This document shows positions 12,878 through 50,127 of a stretch of 64,000 nucleotides of DNA, piece by piece. The DNA comes from Sycon ciliatum. Its lineage: Eukaryota > Porifera > Calcarea > Leucosolenida > Sycettidae. Numbering within the stretch: the first letter of the stretch is position 1; each line of letters begins with the position of its first letter. A program made the translations under genes and the position numbers. A model generated the notes under the pieces. The model saw only the letters and a program-made list of their open reading frames with translations, was not told the origin of the DNA and made no database searches. The stretch spans positions 4,740,264 to 4,804,263 of the forward strand of contig NC_088655.1 of NCBI RefSeq assembly GCF_964019385.1. The letters run 5' to 3'.

Positions 12878-14487
12878 TAGGCACCGGCGGATAATGCTAG
12901 CATAATAACTAGCATAATGACCCATGTGGGGAAGACCGGCACTGCCCTAGCATAAAGCCTCCAAATGTGACCTTGTGTAGCACAATCGCGATATCGATGT
13001 GTGAAACTAGCACTACGTCCAGATGAAAGTGTATGCTGGTTTGCTGCGTTTACGGAGTTGTTCAAACTGCACTGACTTGTACTTGGAGCTAAATATAGCA
13101 TTGTGCACACTTTTTGCAAATTTGATTTCCAAATTATTATATGCAATGCTTGTCTTGAAGTTCAATGTCAATGATACGGCGAGTCTTTTCCAAGTAAGAA
13201 CGGTAGTTTGTAATTATTTTGGCCTTCAACTTTAGCATGTTGAGTCGTTGTTGACAGTGAAATTAATTATAAAAGTGGTGAGTCCTTCGCTATAAGTGAG
13301 CAAACTAGTTGTACTGTCGTAGCTTGTCGTAATTTGTTGGCCCGATGGCAGCTACGGGAGACGGAGGCTCTGGTTTTGAAACAGAAGATGAGAGCAGTGA
13401 GAGTGATGGCTTTGTTAGCGAAGAGGGAAGCTCTGACTTGGAAAAGAACGCGGCAGCCGACAGTCTTCCAGCAGCACAACCAGCTGCTATTGCCCGCAAA
13501 AAGTCGTTTGCAAGAAGTGGAAAGTCGAGCGACTCGAGCCAGAATTCCGAAGCAAAGCGCGTGAGAGTGTCAGCTGGGAAATCCACCGCAGCTCCTCGAC
13601 GCAGCACCCACGATCGGATAGCAGAATTCCCAGGCGAGTACCTCTCAGTTTCTGCGGGGAAACTCTACTGCACAGCTTGTAACTTGACGATCAGTATCAA
13701 GCACAGCATTGTGAAAGCGCATGTGAATAGCCAACGACATGTGCAAGGAAAGGAGAGTAAGAAGCGGGCGAAACTTCACCAACAGGCAATAACTATTTCG
13801 TGGAAAAAGTTTTCAAGTGAAAGCACGTCTGACCTGGCGGGAAGCGGTCTGTCACAAGCTGTGTCCGAAGATGTTGTTGTTCGGCGGGCCAACGTTGTTG
13901 AGGCTTTCTTAAAGGCTGAAATTCCGCTCTGTAAGGTGGATTACCTGCGCCCTCTCCTGGAGAGTGGTTACGGACGTTTAACATAATTATAGCACTCACA
14001 TGGCTCAGCTGATTCCATTCCTGCACTGCAAGGAGGAAGATGAATTAAAGAAGGAGATATCAGGTGCACCGTATGTGGCTGTCATATTTGATGGAACTTC
14101 CCGCCTGGGAGAGGCACTTGCAGTGGTTCTGCGGTATGTGGATGCGGATTTCAAGATTCATCAGAGACTTGTTCGCTTCCATGTACTGGCAAAGAGTCTG
14201 GCAGGCCTGGAGTTGTCACGGGAGTTGATCACTGTCCTATCTACAAAACTTCAACTGTCTTCTGGGAAAGTGCTCGCTGTGGTCCGTGACGGTGCCGCTG
14301 TTAATGGAGTAGCAGTACGGAGTATGCAGGAACTTCTCTACCCACAAGTCATTGATGTCAAATGCGTGTCCCACAGTTTGGACAATGTCGGCACTGCTAG
14401 CATTATAACTAGCATAATCGCTCCAAATAACTAGCAGTGCTAGTAGCACAATTTCCTCATATAACTAGCATTATCCGCCGGTGCCTA
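12878..14487 (+). mobile_element. related hAT-like element nested in the larger one
   Basis: Ends TAGGCACCGGCGGATAATGC and its complement. Flanks on both sides contain ATAATGCTTCAACAAGGCTA, which is tandemly repeated (23-bp period) just to the right, so the exact TSD is obscured. The same TIR family bounds the 203-bp MITE at 29838-30040. The transposase frame runs directly into the right-end sequence, implying the 3' half of the gene was deleted. Confidence 0.65.
13345..14434 (+). pseudogene. hAT-family transposase, frameshifted and 3'-truncated
   Basis: First frame 13345-13986 (213 codons): an acidic Ser-rich N-terminus, basic region, then a BED-like C2H2 finger around residues 108-134 (LYCTACNLTISIKHSIVKAH ending in NSQRHV). 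A one-base frameshift between about 13960 and 14000 leads to the second frame 14000-14434, which holds the start of the RNase-H-like catalytic core: YVAVIFDGTS, then VRDGAAVNG and VKCVSHSLDNVG, resembling the hAT 'DGAxxN..HxLD' region. The protein breaks off at 14395 where the element's right-end repeats begin. It cannot encode an active transposase. Confidence 0.75.
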
Positions 14488-18349: not shown

Positions 18350-21300
18350 ATGTCATCGTCTTCACAAGAGCTCGACGAGGACCAAATCGTCGCGTGTGAG
18401 CAGGCGGCCATGCAGGCGCTGATCTCGACCATCAGCGACACGATCGACGCCAGCCACATGCTCATGTACTTCCAGCAGGAGAAAATCATCGATCCCAAGG
18501 AGAAGGAGGCCATCAAGAGAGGCCATCCGACGCGAGACGAGCTCAACACTCGATTTTTGGACTTGGTTTGCTATCAGAAGTTCAACTTGGGTAACATTAC
18601 TGCCTACCAGTGCTTTGTGCGCTATTGTATCAAGAACAGAGCTTATCCCAAGCTCAAAGAAAAGCTGTGCCGCGAGTTTGAGAAGCAGAAAGCGCCAACC
18701 GACGCGCCAGGTAACTAACTATTAAATTTAGCCTGTGCTGGCGTGTGTGTGTATGTGTGTGTGTGCGTGCGCGTGTATGCGTGCGTACGTGTCCGTGCGT
18801 GCGTACGCGTCCGTGCGTGCGTATGCATGCGTACGTATCTGTGCGTGCATTGGCACGTGTGTGTATGCATGTTTTGTCCAAAGATCGTAGTGGAATGATG
18901 AATGTCAGAATTACGAATGACAGTCCCGCACTCATTTCTTTTTTTTTGGGGGGGGGGGGGGGGTTGCCCGTAATTTAATTGTCACAGTTTATCATGACCC
19001 TACAAACGTACCGTATGTTTGCGGGGCGAAAGTACGGTTGTCATTTTAACTTCACTGCGCGTCCGCGGTTTCCACCTCACTGTCTCAAAGACCCACTGTA
19101 CATGTACATGACTGTATTTGATCACCGTGACACAAGTTAGCAATGGAACAAGGCTGAAACTAGGCTGAAACTAGGCTGAAACCAGACTGAAACCAGCAGG
19201 CTGAAACCAGACTGAAACTAGGCTGAAACCAGGCTGAAACTAGGCTGAAGCTAGGCTGAAACCAGGCTGAAACTAGGCTGAAACCAGACTGAAACCAGGC
19301 TGAAACTAGGCTGAAACCAGCAGGCTGAAACCAGACTGAAACTAGGCTGAAACCAGACTGAAACCAGGCTGAAACTAGGCTGAAACTAGGCTGAAGCTAG
19401 GCTGGAACTAGGCTGAAGTTGTATTACTCAGATTTAGCTCGGATGTTGAGCCAATGTAATCGTGGATATAGAAAAAGAAAGGACCAAAACGTAACATGTA
19501 ATGTTAGGAGTTATGACCAAGTTATGACCAAGTTCAGGGTATTCCCTGTCAGTTTTGTACCTTGTTCTCCCACTTGGTAACTATAGTATTCAGTGTCTGC
19601 TCCAGAGCCGGGTGAGCCGGGTAATCGACCCGGCTGGGCGGCGCTTGGACCCCGTTGAAAATATAGTACCAGGTCATCTGTGACCCGGTTGGTACTTTAC
19701 ACGTTCGAACTTTGAAAGGACTAGTACATGGCTTGTATGTGGGACAGATCATGCATAGGCGCGCGTCGAATACATGTGTACCCGGCTCCGACCCGGTTGA
19801 AATGGTTGCGCCAGGTACACGTGTACCCGGCTGTCCTACAATCCTAGAGCAGACACTGGTATTATGTGGTTACTTTGTTGTACAGTTGGTCACAACTCGT
19901 AACATTTGCCCCTTCCCATATTTTATATCCATAGTTTCAGTTCGAGCACTCTGGCAAGGTACGTTCGGGCCTGGTTTAAATCTGGCTTTGGAAATTTTTA
20001 TTTTTCATTGCTATCAGGTTCGGCCTCATTCCCTCTGTGCTGCGCTGATGAGTCCACAAAGGACGAAACGGTTCTGTCCGTAGATTGAGTATCCATAGTT
20101 TCATGGATATCTACCAATGCTCAGACAAAACTTTCTCACGTATCAACAATGCGGTGTTATTCCAACTGATGGCTATCACAAGAAACTGTTTTCGGAAATA
20201 ACCCACCAACTTTGCCTTCATGACTGTGTGTTTAGAATGAGTGCGCAGTTCATCCTTTGTCATTTCTATAACAATGATGTCATTTCTATAACAATGATGT
20301 CATTTCTATAACAATGATCGCGTTGTGTTACATGTATCTGCTGTGTTTGTCCGCAGCGCCATACGTTGCCCGTGTCAGCTCGCCCAGCGAGGGTTACGAG
20401 CCGGACCGCGTGTCCATCACGTCCAACTCCACCGACGCGTCTCCGTTCTCACGGCCTGGCTCCTCGCGTCTGCCCAACGATAGCATGAGCAGCTGGTCGG
20501 CCATGTCAACGCCAAACTCGTCGGGTCGCCAGTCGGCAACGCCGGCCACGGACTTCTCGCCAGGGCAGACATCCGTGACTCCCGTCACTCCCGTGCAGCG
20601 AACAATGCCGCCGGTCAGAGCGGTTGACGACGGGCAAGGCGCCCGAAAGCTCATCCCCGAAAAGGTAGTGTTCCCACCACTGGCCGATACACTGCCGTCG
20701 CCACCGCGAGCACAACCCTCTGCTGCTGTTGTTGGTGCTGCTGCTGGTGGTAGTGGTGGTGGTTCCGGCAATGTACCAGCGGCATTGTTCACGCCGTCGC
20801 GAGCTCCTCATTTCAACGTGCAGAACCTGCCGTCCCGCCAGCCCACCTCCACCCTATCTCTATCACCGTCATCGTCCTCGTCGTCCATGTCCATGTCGAC
20901 TTCCAGGCAGGGCTCTCTTGTAGCAAAGGAGAGTGTGTCGTCATCGTCAGCCTCCGATGGCAGTGACATGTACAAGTCACGCTCATCTCCATCAAGTAAG
21001 CGAGGAGGCGGGAAAATCGGTTATAGACACAAGCGTGCATGCATGCATGCTTGGGAAGGCTTTTGTTCTCTGCTATCTTGTCGTGCAGAACAACAGTCAA
21101 AACATGATGTTCCCTTTGCTTATCGGTCGTGCGGCCCGTGTGTGTGTGTGTGTGCGCGCGCGCGCGTGCGTGCATAACCGTGTGTCCGTGCGTACGTGTA
21201 CGTGTGTGCATGTATACATAAGTATTATGTGTACACAAAGGCACATAATGAAAACCTTGGCAAATTAGCAAAGCATATTGCCTCTGTGTATTGTGTGTAC

Positions 21301-31795: not shown

Positions 31796-34096
31796 GTGAC
31801 TGCCAAGCGTCTTGGCGCGACGGGCGAGCAGGACAGTGTCATGGTGGAACTTGTGACCAGGGCTTCTGATCCCAGGTGGTGGACGCCGGAATGTAGTAGT
31901 GCAATCGCACAAAAGCATTCAGCGTGGAAGAGGTGGAGCCGCTCAAAAGCCAGTGAGACACTGAAAGCAGCCTATGTCCAGGCAGTTACCAATGCTGTGT
32001 CAACTCTGCAGCAAGCCCAACTTTCCTGGGAGGAACACCTCAAGCAGAAGCTTCGAACAGGCAACTTGCGGGACAAACAGTGGTGGAGTACCATTAGAGC
32101 CGCCGCCGGGAAGGAACGACACTCTGACATTCCTACTGTAGTATCCCTGCCCGGCCAATACGGAAGCAATACGGAACTTCACCGTATGTATATTAATTTT
32201 AGTGTATCTCCGCATATAAGCGTACGGCGTCTGCTGAATAAAAGCGGCTGCGCATTTCTGTTTAGATGAGATTTTGATAATAACGAGCTATTCAACCTCC
32301 AGGTGTGCACCGGAGAGAAAATTATTTATTTGCCGCTTCTTCTTTAATTTAACTTCTAATATATCCTAGGTGTGTACCTAAGAGAATAATAATAAAAGAT
32401 AACTCGTGTTAATTGCACCGCGCCTACCACTCGGCTACCTGTTACACTACGCTTGTTGATTCCAACCAGCGTGAACATCTCACAGCCCGCTCCAAGGCTG
32501 AGTGCTTCGGTACCTACTTCTCGCAGAAGTGCAGTCTTGGTGGTGACGACTTGAGTCCCACTGACATTCCAGACCATATTCCACCTACACCATTATATCA
32601 GTTCATGGACGTGCACTTCAGGGTTCCCATTGTCCGTAACACTTGTCCAGACTCGACGCAGGGAAGGCTACGGGCCCCGACCAAATTCCAGCTCGTGTCC
32701 TTAAGGAATGCTGCCATGAATTAGCACGTCCCCTGTCAACTCTCTTCTCGCTCTGTTTTCGGTCCGGTGTCCAGCCAGCGGCCTGGAAAACAGCGAATGT
32801 GGTACCAGTGTACAAGAAGGCTTCTCGCTCCCTGCCAGCAAACTATCGCCCGGTATCCCTCTTGTCCATCTGCTCTAAGGTTATGGAAGGAATCATTTAT
32901 CACCAGCTAGTAAACTACCTTGAGCGCCACCACCTCCTCTCTGCACGCCAATTTGGCTTCAGACGAGGCCTAGGAACAGCCGACCTCCTCAAGCCTTGAA
33001 TCATGAGTGGACTCTCACCACTGGAAGTGGAGGATGCTCGATGGTTCTTGCGGTAGATATCGCAGGCGCCTTCCACAAGGTATCACACATCGGAGTCACC
33101 TGCAAGCTGCAGACACTCGGCATCCGTGGTAGAGCCCTGACCTGGCTGACAGATTATTTGTCTCTCAGGAAGCTACAGGCTGTTGTGAATGGCCAGAGTT
33201 CGTCGCCCTACCCTATAGAGTCAGGAGTACCCCAGGGGAGCATACTGGGGCCAACTCTGTTCCTCATCTATGTAAACGATGCGGAGCAGTGCCTAGCTCC
33301 TGGATGTTCACTGGCCACCTTCGCCGATGATACAACGGTCTACACCTGTATTGGATCACCGAAACTGCTCCCAAACAGTAAGAAGAGCTTACAAGCCACC
33401 CTGGATGCGCTCCATGACTTGGGCAAGAAGTGACGGATCAGGTTTGAGCCCACAAAGTCACAGCTCATGACGATAGCCCATCAGCGGCACAGGTGGCCTA
33501 TCATGGACCTCACGTTTGGAGATCACACTGTGTCTGAGCTATCGGAGGTAAAACTCCTCGGCATCACATTTGACTCGGGCCTCTCCTTCAAAACCCACCT
33601 CCACAACACAGCACTCAAGGCGAATTCCCGCCTGGGCTTCCTGCGCAAAGCTGCTCGCGTACTCGATGGTGCTGGTAAACGAACCGTCTACAGAGGTTTT
33701 GTGAGGCCAGTCCTAGAGTATGCCCTCCACATTCTTGGCCCTGATGTCCTCCTCCAGAGTTTGGCAGCAAGGTGATTGGTCGCCGCTCTCAGCTATATGT
33801 ATAAACTGATGTGTCTGGCAGGGCCACCGCAACTAACGTCGCTGGTCCCCCCACAGCTTCCTCCACGAACATTTCCTCGAACTCAGTCCCACCACTGGGT
33901 GCGCCACGAGTCTCAGCTACAGAACGTCCTCCCGGCTTCCTCTCCTGATTACGTGCGACGGTGCTTCCCCTACAGCATCATTGACGAGTGGAACAACTTA
34001 CCCCCAACTGTGCTGCAGTCTCCGCCACGCCTGACGGCCCTCCAGTCGTTCAAGGGCAAGGTACATCAACACCTACGACAAAGCCGCTGGTATTGA
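31796..34096 (+). pseudogene. CR1/jockey-type LINE reverse transcriptase, broken
   Basis: Successive plus-strand frames cover an ORF2 protein. 31796-32180 is the linker region (DPRWWTPECS..). 32413-32724 and 32643-32999 include RT motifs (VVPVYKKASRSLPANYRPVS then SLLSICSKVMEG). 32996-33433 holds GVPQGSILGPTLFLIYVND and the catalytic FADDTTVY. 33467-33775 is the thumb, and 33776-34096 the C-terminus with IIDEWNNLPP. At least four frameshifts and an in-frame stop (TGA at 33431) break it. About 230 bp at 32180-32410 has no coding match and looks like a secondary insertion. It is not functional. The endonuclease domain is missing or unrecognisable. Confidence 0.85.
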
Positions 34097-38510: not shown

Positions 38511-39869
38511 CTAGGTGAAGAGTCTCAGTTTTGTGACATTTTCTTTCTGAATGCATAGATTAGGATTGTGTTTACGGATGAAAACAGCTTCTAATACCTT
38601 AAGTTCACGAAACCTACGAGCACGACACAAAACAGTGAAGCACGAATCATCATACACTGAGCGGCATTGGCTACTAGACAAAAGGTGTTTCTTAATGGCT
38701 GACCCTTTCGTTGTGGTCTCACCTTCAGTCCGGTCATCTTCATCTTGGTTGTCCAACTCACTCTCTTCATCACTGCTCTCACCTTCCTCATCCTCTTCCT
38801 CTTCCATCCCGTCCTCTGCACCCAACGACCATCCCACGCTACTGCTCGCTGCCAGTCCATGTCCGGTTGTAGATGCCATTACCAGCGCACGAGTCATGCT
38901 CCTTGTTACTGGTCTCCGTACCTGTGTTTGGCCATTTCCTTCAGTCTCACGTACCTGTGTACTTGTAGTACGTTCAACCGGTACTGTGTGGTTCTGTTGT
39001 AATTGTGCAACTGGCACCTGTTTGCGGGGACGGCCTCGTCCAGGTCGCTGGGCTTTGGCTCCATCTGACAATAGGTACAATGGTACATGTTGTTTGACGC
39101 GTGCGTTCAGGTGCTGAAGGGTTCTTCCTACATATCGGCTATCACAATGCCGACATTCAAAATGATAGATTACATGGCTAATCAGTTGGGTAGGAAGAAC
39201 ATCCTTCTTCACCGTGAACGCACGGCCCGTAGTAAAGACTGTTGTCAATGCTGTGGCAAAATAGGTTTGTCTGACAACAGTCCTCACGGCACGGGCCACA
39301 TCCAGCGAAATTTGACCTTTCCATGGAAGTCGTAAAAACACACGACATGGGTCAGGTCCAAACTCAGGCTCGGCAGCCTGAATATCAGGTTCGCTAAACA
39401 GCTTACTGAGGAGCTGAACAGGATATCCATTCTGAACGAATACCTTCTTCAGGAAACAAAGCTCTTGCTGAAGCTTATCAGGCGAGCAAATCCGCCTAGC
39501 GCGCATGATCAAATTTCGTACGAGATTAGTTTTGTATAAAGTCGAGCAATAGGAGTCGTAGACAATGTATTGCCCGATGAACGTTGGTTTTCGATATACT
39601 GAAGTTGAAACACCCATCTCCGTTTTCTCGACTAACACATCGAGAAAAGACAAACGGTTTGACTGCTCATGTTCACATGCAAATTTCAGAGCGGGATGTA
39701 GATTGTTGAGCATACCAAGAAACTCATTCGATTGTTCCAGATTACGGAAATGCGTGAACGAATCATCCACGAATCTAACATATAAGCTAGGCCACATCGC
39801 ACTTGGAATCTTCGATTCATGAAACCCGACAAACACATTGGCCAGAACTGGACCCAATGGTAAACCCAT
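38511..39869 (-). pseudogene. Penelope-like element ORF: partial RT plus GIY-YIG endonuclease
   Basis: A 452-codon open frame, 5'-truncated. It starts inside the RT (MGLPLGPVLANVFV, the PLE 'SPLGP.LAN' motif) and includes YVRFVDDSF with the catalytic DD. The connector follows (RLSFLDVLVEK, SVYRKPTFIGQYIVYDS, LLSKLF region). A GIY-YIG-type nuclease region comes next at about residues 225-270: CRHCDSRYVGRTLQHLNARV then KQHVP. After a long acidic/basic linker, the C-terminus ends with LKVLEAVFIRKHNPNLC. PLEs reverse transcribe at nicked or telomeric ends using these domains. The upstream fingers/palm of the RT are absent, and a stop codon precedes the first Met at the junction with copy 2. Confidence 0.85.
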
Positions 39870-40187: not shown

Positions 40188-42503
<2,316 letters not shown>

Positions 42504-44165: not shown

Positions 44166-44619
44166 ATGTAGGTTTGCAGCGTACGGCAAACCGTAGTTAT
44201 CGCTGACAACCGAGCAGCAGGCAAAAGCCACGCGCGTGGCTAGGCGCACAACAATGGGGCTGTCTGGCATGCAATGGCGGGCAGCCGTACTGGGGAAAGC
44301 CCAGGCCGCAGTACGAGTACGCCCATATGCGCGGGCGAGACTACCCCATATTTGCATAAAGGTATCAGCACTACTAATACAATGTTTACTACAAGCAGGG
44401 CTCATGGCGCCTAATCTCTATATTAGGAAGCAGTTCCTTTCATGGCACGAAAGGACTCCAGCGCGCGTACTAAGCCTCAGCCAAGGTACAGTACTAACCG
44501 AGTACGCAAGATAGAACAGGCGGTGTGGCGGAGCAAACATACCACGTATGGAAGAGGCGAAGTCCCCGGATGCCGCCCGGTCCACAATGACAGACACCAC
44601 CATGCTTATATGGGAAATA
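44166..44619. other. no assignable gene
   Basis: Not clearly part of either flanking LINE. No exon found. Confidence 0.3.
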
Positions 44620-46095
44620 AGGCGTGAGAGCCCACCAGGTAAGGCTGTTACCTGCCCGATTATGTCAATCCAGTTTGCAGACGATATAGCCTTGACTTCC
44701 ACCCGCCGCAGCGCTGACCTCGTTTCTTCTGAGCTCACAACAGCCGTCTCTAACCTAGCTCGCTGGCTAGCCTCCCGTGGTCTCATCCTCAACGCCACCA
44801 AGAGTCAGCTCCTTGTCTTTGCAGGATCCAATGGCCAGAGTCCCAACGTTGTGGTAAAGTGCGATGGCATACCCGTGCCAAGCGTCACCAGTGCCCGCTA
44901 CCTTGGCATCACCTTGGATGTACGCATGTCATGGCAGCCCCAGGTCGATGCGAGCATCACGAAAGCCAATAAGAAAATTGGAACTCTGTGGCGGACACGA
45001 AAGTCGCTAACACTTGCTAGCCGTGTGCTGTTCTTCAAGGCAGCTATCATGCCGGATCTACTGTATGGGTCCGTTGCGTTTAGCCCAGGTCTCACTCAGG
45101 CCCAGACCGACCGGCTCCAAGTAGCACAAAACCGTGGGGCAAGAGCAGTTTATGGCCGGCCGGGGTTCTCTCGTGCCAGTGATCTCCTGGAACGCATGCA
45201 GGTGTTCAGGATTGGAGAAATACATCGGCAGAAGGTCCTGGTCTTTGTCTGGAGGTGCATACACGCCAGTGCGAGTCCATCCCTCCAGGAGCTCTTCGTA
45301 CGCTGCGCGGATCGTAGGACGCGCCTGGATCTCGCCCTGGGGCTCCGTCTACCAGCTACACGAACCCGCGCCGGACGATCTCGCCCTGCCTCCCGAGGTA
45401 GTGCCCTTTGGAACGTCCTACCGGATGCAGTCAGAGTACTGTCGTCTCTCAGCAGCTTCAAAGCTGCCGTCGTACCGTATACCCTCCGATCTTCCTGATG
45501 TTATGATTAGAAACTTGCCCTGAGACAGCTTCCTGTCTGTGATTGATTTTCACTGTTTACCATTATTATTTGCCATGGCGACCTCCGTAAGTCCGTAACT
45601 GGCAGGGCAGGGTTGGGCCTTTCATCCTCCCGATGTTAGTAGCAAGTACCGGTACTCTCGTTAGCAGTAACCGTTAGTACTTTGTTTGTTTGTTTTTTAT
45701 TTTATTTTTATTTTATTTTTATTTTCTCTATTTTATTCTCTTTACCAGGCGTGGGCCATCCCCTGGCCAAACAAAATGGGTGCCTTATTATTATTTTTCT
45801 GTTTCTGTTTTAATGACAGTCCACTGCACGCCTGGAAAAAGTACTTAGTTTATTAGGCGGGTTACAGAACTATCGACTTATCGTTCGCTGGCTTACTTGT
45901 AGTTTGATAACGCTTCGCTGTAGTTTGATAACGCTTCGCTCTTCATTGAGATATCTACCATTCTCTCTTTGTTCTCCTTATTTTCTCCCCAACCCTCCTT
46001 CCCTGTAACATAATAACATATTCGCTGCCTTGTCATTGAGCATTTGTGCTCGTTTGGATTTGCGAATTCAAATAAAGTATACATACATACATACA
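44620..46095 (+). pseudogene. 5'-truncated LINE: RT C-terminus, 3' UTR and (ATAC)n tail
   Basis: The open frame to 45498 starts just before the catalytic motif SIQFADDIALTS and continues through the thumb and connection (YLGITLDVRMSWQPQV, then RASDLLERMQVFRI) to a C-terminal WNVLPDAVR motif, similar in layout to the LINE at 31.8-34.1 kb but a different copy. The 3' UTR extends to AATAAAG at about 46070 and a short (ATAC)n at 46078-46095. The RT fingers and endonuclease are absent. Confidence 0.75.
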
Positions 46096-47033
46096 AGGCG
46101 GGCCGCATAAGCACGTGGCAAGCGCAAATAGCGTAAGACGTACCCACGAGGCCACAACGCGAGAGTACGGCAGCATAGCAGAGTACGAGAGTACGATGCC
46201 GGATCAACGCAGGGCGGACCACGGTGTGGTAGTGCCACAGCACGAGGCACCTCAGCAGTTGGAGGTGGCGAACGCAGGGACAGCATCAATATTGGCAGCT
46301 AGCAGCAGCAGCAGATGGGCGTGATTTTTTTTTTTTTTTCTTCTTCAAGACTAGCAACGAGGAGCAGCAGGCAACCCTCGTTTCACTCGTGATTGCTTAA
46401 TCACATGGCAAAAACAACAAAAATGCAACCCCATTCTATGGTGCTATGATGTGTGTGTCTCGGGGGGAGGGGCGATAATTATTTTTTCTAAGAAAGAGCT
46501 TTGCTGATGTGGTGTATTTTGAACTCATGAGAAATCTTCACCGTGATCGTCTTCGTCAAATATCATATCTTCTCTTTTCTCTCTCTGCCGCGGTGCTTTT
46601 TGTCGCTCCATTGTCGTGAGTTCCCTTTGGAACGTAGACGAGAATTATTATTATTATTATTATTATTATTAAAGGCTGAATTATGCTTCCCATTATGCCC
46701 AAATTATGCCAGTGATTATGCTACATGTACATTATACTGGAATTATGCCAATGATGGCGCTATGCTATGCTGCGGTCCAATCTACTAGTATGGTGAACTC
46801 AGTACAAACAGTCCTTGGCGGATTACGCTCGGTAATTTGCTGAATTATGCTTTCCATTATGCCAGTGATTTTGCTACGTTAACAATTATGCTGGTATTAT
46901 GCCAAGGATGGTGGCACACTGTGCCCTTGTACTCTTGTTGCACTTTGCAGCGTTACACGAATGAAAGCGATAGCATGGCTGTAAGGCTCTGGCTGATTTT
47001 CTGACAGCAGCCCAGCTATATACATCTTTACTT
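46096..47033. other. no gene; (ATT)n and ATTATGC-rich transposon debris
   Basis: T-run at 46325-46339; (ATT)n at 46644-46671. From 46675 to 46930, many TTATGC motifs and a phrase TTGGCGGATTACGCTCGG (also at 43679, as TTGGCGGATTATGCTCGG) indicate decayed hAT-like subterminal sequence. Confidence 0.45.
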
Positions 47034-47040
47034 ACTCAAT

Positions 47041-47084
47041 CTGCGGACAGAACTGTTTCGTCCTTTGTGGACTCGTCAGCGCAG
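47041..47084 (-). ncRNA. hammerhead ribozyme, array unit 1
   Basis: Minus strand: stem I CTGCG/CGCAG, core CTGACGA, stem II GTCC-ACAAA-GGAC, core GAAA, stem III ACAG/CTGT with TT loop, cleavage after GTC (between 47046 and 47045). Outer stem I continues past an internal loop with CTC/GAG. Confidence 0.93.
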
Positions 47085-47266
47085 CACAGAGGAAATGAGG
47101 CCGAACCTGATAGCAATGGAAATAAAAATTTCCAATCAGGCCCGAACGTACCTTGCCAGAGTGCTCAAACTGACAAGTCAGTGAGCTCTGCATAACGCAA
47201 ACAGCAAAGGCACTACCCCACGCAAGAGTGCTCAACTGCTACAAGAGCAGGAGCGAAATACTCAAT

Positions 47267-47310
47267 CTGCGGACAGAACTGTTTCGTCCTTTGTGGACTC
47301 GTCAGCGCAG
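47267..47310 (-). ncRNA. hammerhead ribozyme, array unit 2
   Basis: Identical motif to unit 1, all core bases present. Confidence 0.93.
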
Positions 47311-47492
47311 CACAGAGGAAATGAGGCCGAACCTGATAGCAATGGAAATAAAAATTTCCAATCAGGCCCGAACGTACCTTGCCAGAGTGCTCAAACTGAC
47401 AAGTCAGTGAGCTCTGCATAACGCAAACAGCAAAGGCACTACCCCACGCAAGAGTGCTCAACTGCTACAAGAGCAGGAGCGAAATACTCAAT

Positions 47493-47536
47493 CTGCGGAC
47501 AGAACTGTTTCGTCCTTTGTGGACTCGTCAGCGCAG
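47493..47536 (-). ncRNA. hammerhead ribozyme, array unit 3
   Basis: Identical motif to unit 1, all core bases present. Confidence 0.93.
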
Positions 47537-47719
47537 CACAGAGGAAATGAGGCCGAACCATGATAGCAATGGAAATAAAAATTTCCAATCAGGCCCGAAC
47601 GCACCTTGCCAGAGTGCTCAAACTGACAAGTCAGTGAGCTCTGCATAACGCAAACAGCAAAGGCACTACCCCACGCAAGAGTGCTCAACTGCTACAAGAG
47701 CAGGAGCGAAATACTCAAT

Positions 47720-47763
47720 CTGCGGACAGAACTGTTTCGTCCTTTGTGGACTCGTCAGCGCAG
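47720..47763 (-). ncRNA. hammerhead ribozyme, array unit 4
   Basis: Identical motif to unit 1, all core bases present. Confidence 0.93.
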
Positions 47764-47946
47764 CACAGAGGAAATGAGGCCGAACCATGATAGCAATGGA
47801 AATAAAAATTTCCAATCAGGCCCGAACGTACCTTGCCAGAGTGCTCAAACTGACAAGTCAGTGAGCTCTGCATAACGCAAACAGCAAAGGCACTACCCCA
47901 CGCAAGAGTGCTCAACTGCTACAAGAGCAGGAGCGAAATACTCAAT

Positions 47947-47990
47947 CTGCGGACAGAACTGTTTCGTCCTTTGTGGACTCGTCAGCGCAG
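47947..47990 (-). ncRNA. hammerhead ribozyme, array unit 5
   Basis: Identical motif to unit 1, all core bases present. Confidence 0.93.
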
Positions 47991-48172
47991 CACAGAGGAA
48001 ATGAGGCCGAACCTGATAGCAATGGAATTAAAAATTTCCAATCAAGCCCGAACGTACCTTGCCAGAGTGCTCAAACTGACAAGTCAGTGAGCTCTGCATA
48101 ACGCAAACAGCAAAGGCACTACCCCACGCAAGAGTGCTCAACTGCTACAAGAGCAGGAGCGAAATACTCAAT

Positions 48173-48216
48173 CTGCGGACAGAACTGTTTCGTCCTTTGT
48201 GGACTCGTCAGCGCAG
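48173..48216 (-). ncRNA. hammerhead ribozyme, array unit 6
   Basis: Identical motif to unit 1. The unit is complete through the core and stops at 48300, where unrelated sequence and a (TG)n tract begin. Confidence 0.93.
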
Positions 48217-48321
48217 CACAGAGGAAATGAGGCCGAACCATGATAGCAATGGAAATAAAAATTTCCAATCAGGCCCGAACGTACCTTGCCAGAGTTCTCA
48301 AAGAAGAGGCACCTGTGACGT

Positions 48322-48450
<129 letters not shown>

Positions 48451-48518
48451 ACGCTCCTTATAAAGAAGAGGCCCCTGTGACGTGTGTGTTTGTGTCACGC
48501 TGCCCTATCCTAGGCCCT

Positions 48519-48669: not shown

Positions 48670-50127
48670 GTATGGAATCGAGCATGAGTACGAGGACGAA
48701 AGTGCGGAATCGGAGCCCGACGCGCGCTAGCGCGGAGGGCTCCGATTCTAGCACTTGAGTCCGAGTACGAATGCTTTGATACCATTTCTGACATGCATTG
48801 CACGAACTACTTCGTACTACTAGTACTACTACATGTAGTACTTCACACATACCTAGTACCTACTCAAGGCACGCACACTAGACCAGACAAGGAACACAAC
48901 TACCGGTAGTCGCCAGTTTAGTACTTCAGACATGTTACATAATGACTAATGTACACAGTCACAACACAGAGATAAAACAAGGGCGGTCTAGTCAGCTAAA
49001 AACCAGGTCAGTTCAGCTTCTCTTCTTCGCAGTGACTACAGCCTACAGCCTACAGGTGCAGGTGAACATTGCAGTTTGCAAAAAAAAAAGCGGCCTCTGA
49101 TGGCTGAATCGGAGCACGCCTAGGCGTGCTCCGATTCAATCGGAGCACGCCTGGGCGTGCTCCGATTGGAAAATCGGAGACCTGCAAGCGCTCACAGGTC
49201 TTCAGTGGCTGATTCAAAGCACGGCAAGTCGCGCTAGGATTCGCTGTTGCCATGTCGATTGTCATGTGACATGTCAGAATCGTGTTTCTGACATGTCACA
49301 TGACAATCGACATGGCAACAGCGAATCCTAGCGCGACTTGCCGTGCTTTGAATCAGCCACTGAAGACCTGTGAGCGCTTGCAGGTCTCCGATTTTCCAAT
49401 CGGAGCACGCCCAGGCGTGCTCCGATTGAATCGGAGCACGCCTAGGCGTGCTCCGATTCAGCCATCAGAGGCCGCTTTTTTTTTTTTTTTTTTTGGCTGC
49501 AGTTCTGGATGGAGAGTCTCCAACTGCAACCAATGCTGCTACCCGTGCTCTTACAGCGCCAACAACGAGCGTTCAGCGATCACAGCAGCAGACTGAGTTC
49601 CACGATCCCGACATTGATGAGTACACCGCAACTTGTGACCCAACAGTGCAATCCCCAACTCACCAACGGTCTCTGATGCAGAAAGCTACGAAGACCATCA
49701 ACTTTTCCGGAGCTCAGTTTGGTGCAAACTGCAATGTTCACCTGCACCTGTAGGCTGTAGGCTGTAGTCACTGCGAAGAAGAGAAGCTGAACTGACCTGG
49801 TTTTTAGCTGACTAGACCGCCCTTGTTTTATCTCTGTGTTGTGACTGTGTACATTAGTCATTATGTAACATGTCTGAAGTACTAAACTGGCGACTAGTTG
49901 TGTTCCTTGTCTGGTCTAGTGTGCGTGCCTTGAGTAGGTACTAGGTATGTGTGAAGTACTACATGTAGTAGTACTAGTAGTACGAAGTAGTTCGTGCAAT
50001 GCATGTCAGAAATGGTATCAAAGCATTCGTACTCGGACTCAAGTGCTAGAATCGGAGCCCTCCGCGCTAGCGCGCGTCGGGCTCCGATTCCGCACTTTCG
50101 TCCTCGTACTCATGCTCGATTCCATAC
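48670..50127. mobile_element. giant foldback (inverted repeat arms about 610 bp)
   Basis: Left arm 48670-49279, loop of 6 nt, right arm 49286-50127. The arms pair nearly perfectly from the central TCTGACATGTCACATGACA outward to GTATGGAATCGAGCATGAG / its complement. The right arm has about 232 extra bases (49486-49722) next to a poly-T run that matches a shorter poly-A in the left arm. Smaller palindromes such as GAGCACGCCTAGGCGTGCTC are nested within each arm. It resembles a foldback transposon or a recent inverted duplication; no TSD was seen. Confidence 0.85.
49495..49722 (+). pseudogene. coding-like segment present in only one foldback arm
   Basis: The plus-strand frame reads SPTATNAATRALTAPTTSVQ.. 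then FHDPDIDEYTATCDPTVQSP and TINFSGAQFGANCNVHLHL, ending with a stop inside the shared arm (about 49753). Composition and codon flow look protein-like (Thr/Ser/Gln-rich with a short C-terminal strand motif). The end GANCNVHLHL is also encoded by the left arm, so the segment was either captured by one arm or lost from the other. Family not recognised. Confidence 0.4.

Follow-up and report, generated by a model that had tools for sequence, protein, structure and literature searches.

A hammerhead-bearing tandem array in the sponge Sycon ciliatum is very probably a dispersed, non-coding metazoan retrozyme

The metazoan non-LTR retrozymes (Cervera and de la Pena, 2020; PMC7229834) are described there as non-coding repeats that carry a type I hammerhead in tandem units of 150-450 bp, have a GC content below 50% and target-site duplications (TSDs) longer than 4 bp, and are found as multi-unit copies in genomes that also contain Penelope-like elements (PLEs). 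Their hosts as given there are cnidarians, rotifers, platyhelminths, annelids, molluscs, crustaceans, insects and amphibians; the paper contains neither the word sponge nor the word porifera. How retrozyme RNA returns to DNA is presented in the same paper as a hypothesis, in which target DNA or a small RNA primes the circle. In this study, we have analysed a stretch of 64 kb (the window, C14:4740264-4804263) of the genome of Sycon ciliatum (538 Mb, 313 contigs), together with copies elsewhere in that genome counted by sequence pattern. A sequence-only reading had likened an array of hammerheads in the window to animal retrozymes, and our data support this comparison: the hammerhead is of type I, the units (226/227 bp) are in tandem and lack coding sequence, GC is 0.496 (marginal against the limit of 50%), TSDs reach at least 11 bp in 18 of 36 loci, and both multi-unit copies and PLEs occur in the same genome. 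Based on our results, we consider it highly probable that the locus is a metazoan non-LTR retrozyme, non-coding and non-autonomous, inserted by a borrowed reverse transcriptase from a predicted ribozyme-processed RNA.

Other described systems share part of these features. The hammerhead repeats of Nematostella have 15-bp TSDs, which resemble those of the copies reported here; their ends and unit phases, unlike ours, are left undescribed in the excerpts of that report (PMC4918200). In the same way, a shared 3' end beside the cut combined with variable 5' ends, as found here, is undescribed in the Results and Discussion of PMC7229834. PLEs with hammerheads in their pseudo-LTRs have, according to the excerpts of PMC11167929, type I-like motifs in tandem, AT-rich targets and an internal start 3' of the cut, as here, but they encode a reverse transcriptase and GIY-YIG whereas the present element is non-coding. 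The anole PLE of that study has a preference for AT-rich DNA, starts internally on its RNA and carries out extension on both strands; its start lies 111-118 bp into the ORF and its cut at +26, which places the start ~85-92 nt past the cut, as compared with 10-13 nt here. Plant LTR retrozymes (excerpts of PMC4918200 and PMC7229834) are also non-coding, hammerhead-bearing and present as solo and full copies. They differ in having a type III hammerhead, LTRs with a primer-binding site and a polypurine tract, and 4-bp TSDs; our copies have a type I hammerhead and TSDs of 11-16 bp. The element is not a plant LTR retrozyme and, on the examined loci, not a PLE pseudo-LTR either. Among the papers listed by one open-licence library, we found no report of a sponge retrozyme (in the excerpts of PMC4918200 and PMC7761336, the sole "sponge" is a microRNA-sponge reference), and the family is apparently new in Porifera.

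In its sense direction, which is the minus strand, the array reads core-(linker-core)x5, in which six 136/137-nt cores alternate with five linkers, each 90 nt long (Table 1). Tandem Repeats Finder, run on the 64-kb window, gives a 226-bp period, 5.6 copies and a 99% match at 47033-48302. Where six units of 226-227 bp had been counted from the sequence, six hammerhead cores are indeed present, but the array is bounded by core edges at both sides and consists of five complete 226/227-nt units plus one 136/137-nt core. The five linkers are identical, and four substitutions and one single-base insertion separate the six cores. This extra base, carried by three of the six (cores 1, 3 and 4), accounts for the two unit lengths, and along cores 1-6 it follows the non-periodic order +-++--. 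The four changes at paired positions preserve pairing; as all are one-sided and no shuffle control was exceeded, we rejected them as a sign of selection on the window copies. No open frame of at least 130 aa overlaps the array, and ARAGORN found no tRNA in the 64-kb window. We likewise rejected a Pol III promoter (A- and B-box-like words with one or two mismatches each, and a T5 run between them) and a linker derived from a degenerate core, for which the match spans 14 bases with one mismatch and is weak, since 38 of 5000 shuffles equal it. No TSD is detectable at the flanks of the array, and the right flank is rearranged, lying within a duplicated segment that surrounds a (TG)65 run; at 48301-48500, AAAGAAGAGGC, then A or C, then CCTGTGACGTGTGT is present on both sides of this run, at the right edge of the array. 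The window also holds a solo core, absent from the sequence-only reading and ~86% identical to the array core. The perfect 14-bp duplication TATCCATAGTTTCA around it shows that it inserted as a unit.

Table 1. Positions of the array, its parts and the solo copy in the window
Feature	Positions	Strand	Remarks
Retrozyme array, core-(linker-core)x5	47033..48302	-	sense strand is minus
Core 1, 5'-most in sense	48166..48302	-	hammerhead 48172-48217; predicted cut 48178/48177
Linker 1, 90 nt	48076..48165	-	identical to other four
Core 2	47940..48075	-	hammerhead 47946-47991; predicted cut 47952/47951
Linker 2	47850..47939	-	identical to other four
Core 3	47713..47849	-	hammerhead 47719-47764; predicted cut 47725/47724
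Linker 3	47623..47712	-	identical to other four
Core 4	47486..47622	-	hammerhead 47492-47537; predicted cut 47498/47497
Linker 4	47396..47485	-	identical to other four
Core 5	47260..47395	-	hammerhead 47266-47311; predicted cut 47272/47271
Linker 5	47170..47259	-	identical to other four
Core 6, 3'-most	47034..47169	-	hammerhead 47040-47085; predicted cut 47046/47045; terminates at shared 3' terminus ATTGAG(TA)
Left TSD of solo copy, TATCCATAGTTTCA	19926..19939	+	14 bp
Diverged solo core, same family	19940..20089	+	intact hammerhead 20039-20084; same 3' terminus as array
Right TSD of solo copy	20090..20103	+	identical 14 bp

Each core contains stem I (CTGCG/CGCAG), CTGACGA, stem II (GTCC-ACAAA-GGAC), GAAA, a short stem III and the triplet GTC. 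The assignment to type I made in the sequence-only reading is borne out by the Rfam and pattern searches, in which the catalytic positions are intact in all six copies. The Infernal search that it had proposed as a check matched all six on the minus strand over the full RF00163 model (Hammerhead_1, 1-45/45) with low E values (4.8e-5 searching 1.5 kb, 0.0021 searching 64 kb), but the score of 30.1 bits each lies below the curated gathering score of 34, at which nothing was reported, and the six matches, being near-identical copies, are not independent. Over both strands of the array, RF00163 was the only Rfam family to give a match. Within the 64-kb window, the pattern CTGANGAGTCC-N(3-8)-GGACGAAAC-N(4-10)-GTC has 7 occurrences, against none in 100 dinucleotide shuffles of it; the seventh match is the solo copy (20045-20078, plus strand; RF00163 25.2 bits, E=0.088 for 64 kb). 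The stem III of 4 bp closed by a 2-nt loop that had been claimed is not feasible as a hairpin, because a hairpin loop requires at least 3 nt; we evaluated stem III as 3 bp with a 4-nt loop in the monomer, or as a longer intermolecular stem with two U-U mismatches in the dimer. The idea that such a stem favours dimers finds some support in the folding energies (-28.0 kcal/mol for a hammerhead pair sharing stem III vs -17.2 for two monomeric hammerhead folds), although neither fold is the predicted minimum. When the 226-nt monomer or circle is folded with nearest-neighbour energies, the hammerhead lies above the ensemble by 7.7-8.3 kcal/mol. For the isolated 44-mer, an alternative fold reaches -12.0 vs -8.6 kcal/mol for the hammerhead (solo copy, -9.7 vs -5.9), and for two 44-mers the alternative (-28.4) is slightly better than the hammerhead pair at -28.0 (solo, -26.9 vs -22.6). 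As modelled, then, the hammerhead is not favoured.

Genome-wide, the pattern above has 2697 matches (1334 + 1363; reversed control 0), a count to which more than one family contributes. Exact type-A hammerheads, the type of the array, number 1119 in the whole genome and linkers 1812 (0 for the reversed patterns). Through linkers that lack an adjoining type-A hammerhead, we found a sister type, C, with a 228-bp unit and 1384 exact hammerheads genome-wide (reversed-pattern control 0). Its sequence is CTGCG CTGATGA GTTC AAAAA GAAC GAAA CAGCATGCTG TC CGCAG, with a palindromic stem III (ACAGCATGCTGT). Between A and C, stem II changes from GTCC/GGAC to GTTC/GAAC, a C-G pair becoming U-A on both sides, which is a single compensatory event and not many. 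The 42 arrays with at least two exact units in C1:1-82.56 Mb are all pure (24 type A, 18 type C). The exact pattern found 0 relatives in GTDB genomes, and the specific patterns gave 0 matches in IMG/VR and 0 in phages; a generic hammerhead pattern matched at least 120 viral contig stretches in IMG/VR and hence is not retrozyme-specific. Two IMG/VR contigs, L058 and L068, have three and two matches to a hammerhead pattern. At two places on C1, a type-A and a type-C copy stand tail-to-tail with their hammerheads 36 and 46 bp apart (C1:4093534/4093604 and C1:63711489/63711569). A third family, B, which differs in sequence, is built of 352-bp units whose stem III, GTAC, is short and palindromic (L121-L124, L126-L134, L139-L142, on C1); at three of its loci, two of them overlapping (L121, L141, L142), there is similarity to the C-terminal part of PLEs on the opposite strand.

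The insertion footprint was studied in 37 family-A loci, namely those among the first 100 pattern places (C1:1-17.7 Mb) and the two window copies; L135, whose flanks repeat those of L125, was dropped from flank statistics, leaving 36. A search with the triplet GCC gave 37 places, from which 30 loci were cut out and, after exclusion of 4 overlapping ones, 26 added, for a set of 63 in which L207/L208 and L209/L210 look duplicated but were kept. In 60 of the 63 loci, with no filter on ends, the 3' end is no more than 5 nt away from ATTGAGTA; the other 3 end elsewhere. The cut is predicted 10-13 nt upstream of this common end, ATTGAG; for most of the loci, selection required the hammerhead to be intact as far as GTC or GCC, which does not fix an end 10-13 nt beyond. 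Ten further loci were picked by their linker in C1:1-17.7 Mb, without a nearby type-A pattern match and after exclusion of one such pair: 8 terminate at the shared 3' site and none at the cut, the exceptions being L215, which terminates within the linker, and L220, which breaks within the hammerhead. The 5' ends vary over many positions in core or linker, so that two fixed element ends, as considered from the window array and solo copy alone, had to be dropped. Inserts measure 0.15-5.6 units, with at least one unit in 24 and at least two units in 11 of the 63 loci. For TSDs, alignments had to reach the 3' end, and all 37 loci passed. Taken as the longest stretch common to both flanks, a TSD of at least 11 bp was found at 18 of the 36 loci, as against 7 of 1260 mismatched flank pairs, and was missing at the other 18. 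Five of these TSDs are TA-, TAA- or similar simple repeats, and the other 13, judged by eye, are 11-16 bp. Multi-unit inserts are among the carriers: L180 (5.57 units), L176 (4.56), L175 (2.05), L177 (1.54), L169 (1.35) and L156 (1.26). AT content is 72% in the 18 bp that follow the 3' end and 53% in the loci.

Target-primed reverse transcription, as known from non-LTR retrotransposons, is marked by a common 3' end, ragged 5' ends and TSDs, and their combination here argues for that process. Since copying would start 10-13 nt past the cut, and a linear self-cut monomer offers at most that length, the template must have run across the cut without a break. Inserts of several units with TSDs arise most simply from one event, and multi-unit arrays can therefore be inserted whole, from either a circle or an uncut multimer. 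How retrozyme RNA returns to DNA can be read from the copies: they show a single start site next to the cut, a template that spans the cut, several units per insertion and TSDs of 11-16 bp. This footprint and, apparently, a host group (sponges) near the base of the animals are what they add to the knowledge of retrozymes. In our model, each 226-nt unit of a transcript would have one type I hammerhead, RNA multimers would cut themselves, probably best through pairs of hammerheads, and the monomers would be ligated into circles. A borrowed reverse transcriptase, plausibly that of a PLE, would nick AT-rich DNA, begin copying at the single site ATTGAG, cross the cut junction and circuit the template a variable number of times. 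The expected products would be inserts of 0.15-5.6 units whose 3' end is shared and whose 5' ends are ragged, flanked by duplications of 11-16 bp.

This retrozyme reading has to be weighed against other origins of the array. The sequence-only reading had called it a satellite array, a label that we find misleading for a dispersed element: TSDs on several multi-unit inserts, one 3' end and variable 5' ends imply that arrays were made by insertion and not by unequal exchange only. An ordinary satellite, in which an inactive hammerhead repeat was amplified by unequal crossing-over, would account for head-to-tail 226-bp units that are 99% alike and for a window array without a detectable TSD. It is contradicted at the TSD loci, which do not look like local amplification lacking an insertion signature, since copies are dispersed, solo copies have TSDs, and TSD-flanked multi-unit inserts differ in 5' phase while sharing one 3' end. 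We regard it as very unlikely for the family, but it could apply to a later expansion of the window array. We give still less credence to the core being the terminal repeat of an autonomous PLE, with the array as a coding-free remnant of its pseudo-LTRs. PLEs do bear type I hammerheads in pseudo-LTRs (excerpts of PMC7761336), and the window contains PLE reverse transcriptase/GIY-YIG fragments (38514-39854 and 40191-42503). Against this, Rfam (E up to 10) detects no hammerhead near these fragments, and five PLE proteins compared with the 37 family-A loci of ~3 kb (E<=1e-3) show similarity in only one, L164, where it is upstream of the insert and ends ~300 bp before it, so it does not flank the insert. 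Among the loci examined, a sample from one part of the genome, there was no complete PLE flanked by cores. The likeness to PLEs in the sequence-only reading consequently stands by analogy, but not by neighbourhood, with a single locus in 37 having PLE similarity within ~1.5 kb.

The template itself is the next question, and here we lean towards circles. Copying from an uncut linear multimer, with circles unnecessary and the hammerhead incidental or acting later, is doubtful to us but a serious contender. The window array mixes units with and without the extra base non-periodically, as expected from a copied mixed source array, and its order cannot be explained by a single monomeric circle. For the anole PLE, hammerhead mutants left insertion unchanged and the dominant substrate was unprocessed RNA (excerpts of PMC11167929). 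There are also consecutive cleavage-dead units: two GCC in L193; GTC with GAAG, GCC and GCC in L189; and GCC, GCC and GTC with a broken core in L199. Against an uncut multimer speak the absence of any A/C mixing in the 42 arrays and the absence of additional upstream source sequence where TSDs abut the element. In addition, the six units of L180 alternate GCC, GTC, GCC, GTC, GCC, GTC (GCC being cleavage-dead), as a dimeric circle cut only at the live triplet would give. We rejected this alternation as proof of circles, since it is one case with a probability of 2/20 given three dead units of six, and L193, L189 and L199 are counter-examples. Circles are further favoured by one variant common to the four complete units of L176 and one common to both units of L177. 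With circles preferred, a bolder version can be proposed tentatively, which we hold to fall somewhat short of an even chance: arrays would be direct rolling-circle cDNAs of ribozyme-made circles, whose size is set by the cleavable triplets (L180 being the footprint of a dimeric circle), inserted by a PLE-type enzyme that primes both DNA strands and so leaves head-to-head twins. If true, the genome would record in vivo ribozyme activity. The natural cleavage-dead variant also offers a way to ask whether the ribozyme matters for spreading. As to regulation of such circles, a linker segment, ACTGACTTGTCAGT, might switch them off as an anti-hammerhead, as in plant retrozymes and viroids. It can form 11 consecutive pairs with GCTGACGAGTC, which are used in the minimum-energy monomer and circle, and shuffling just those 14 nt lowers the folding gap (observed value reached in 2 of 200). 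This block was found by folding and is weak against whole-linker shuffles: of 2000 shuffled linkers, 94 pair over as great a length and 805 give a duplex at least as good in energy, which makes the observed one average, and 62 of 300 attain the folding gap. We rejected it as a candidate and consider the switch improbable.

With respect to the enzyme, the helper is plausibly a PLE, and a LINE may instead have served. Among the 129 runs of types A and C in C1:1-82.56 Mb, 9 neighbour pairs lie closer than 1.5 kb, vs ~0.3 expected by chance. Of these, 4 share a strand and 5 are on opposite strands (3 head-to-head, 2 tail-to-tail), with a single cluster at 63.71 Mb accounting for two of the five. 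Opposite-strand neighbours of family B are head-to-head in 5 of 5 cases (C1:1-17.7 Mb). These orientations are no more than suggestive of two-strand priming.

Some minor observations concern the surroundings of these copies. Reverse-transcriptase fragments matching PF00078, possibly LINE-derived, are found at 32924-33433 and 44515-45498, both on the plus strand. A pure (TTG)397 run of 1190 bp (40571-41760) lies in a PLE-derived reading frame and yields a long poly-threonine frame. Next to the array there is a fold-back element (48670-50127) with inverted arms at 48670-49080 and 49723-50127 that are 98.5% identical, and a near-palindromic centre at 49080-49485. A 33-bp repeat occurs in 28.8 copies with a 100% match at 1283-2234 and in 4 copies at 185-316. 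Two protein matches point to a calcareous sponge as the probable host: a PLE fragment of the window matches a Sycon ciliatum protein at 62% over 69%, and the frame at 13333-13986 has a 91% match to a EukProt entry labelled scpid, the label of Sycon ciliatum. Finally, on C1, a type-A array on the minus strand (C1:50178180-50178889) has some exact hammerheads and linkers spaced 452 bp apart, possibly alternating like L180.
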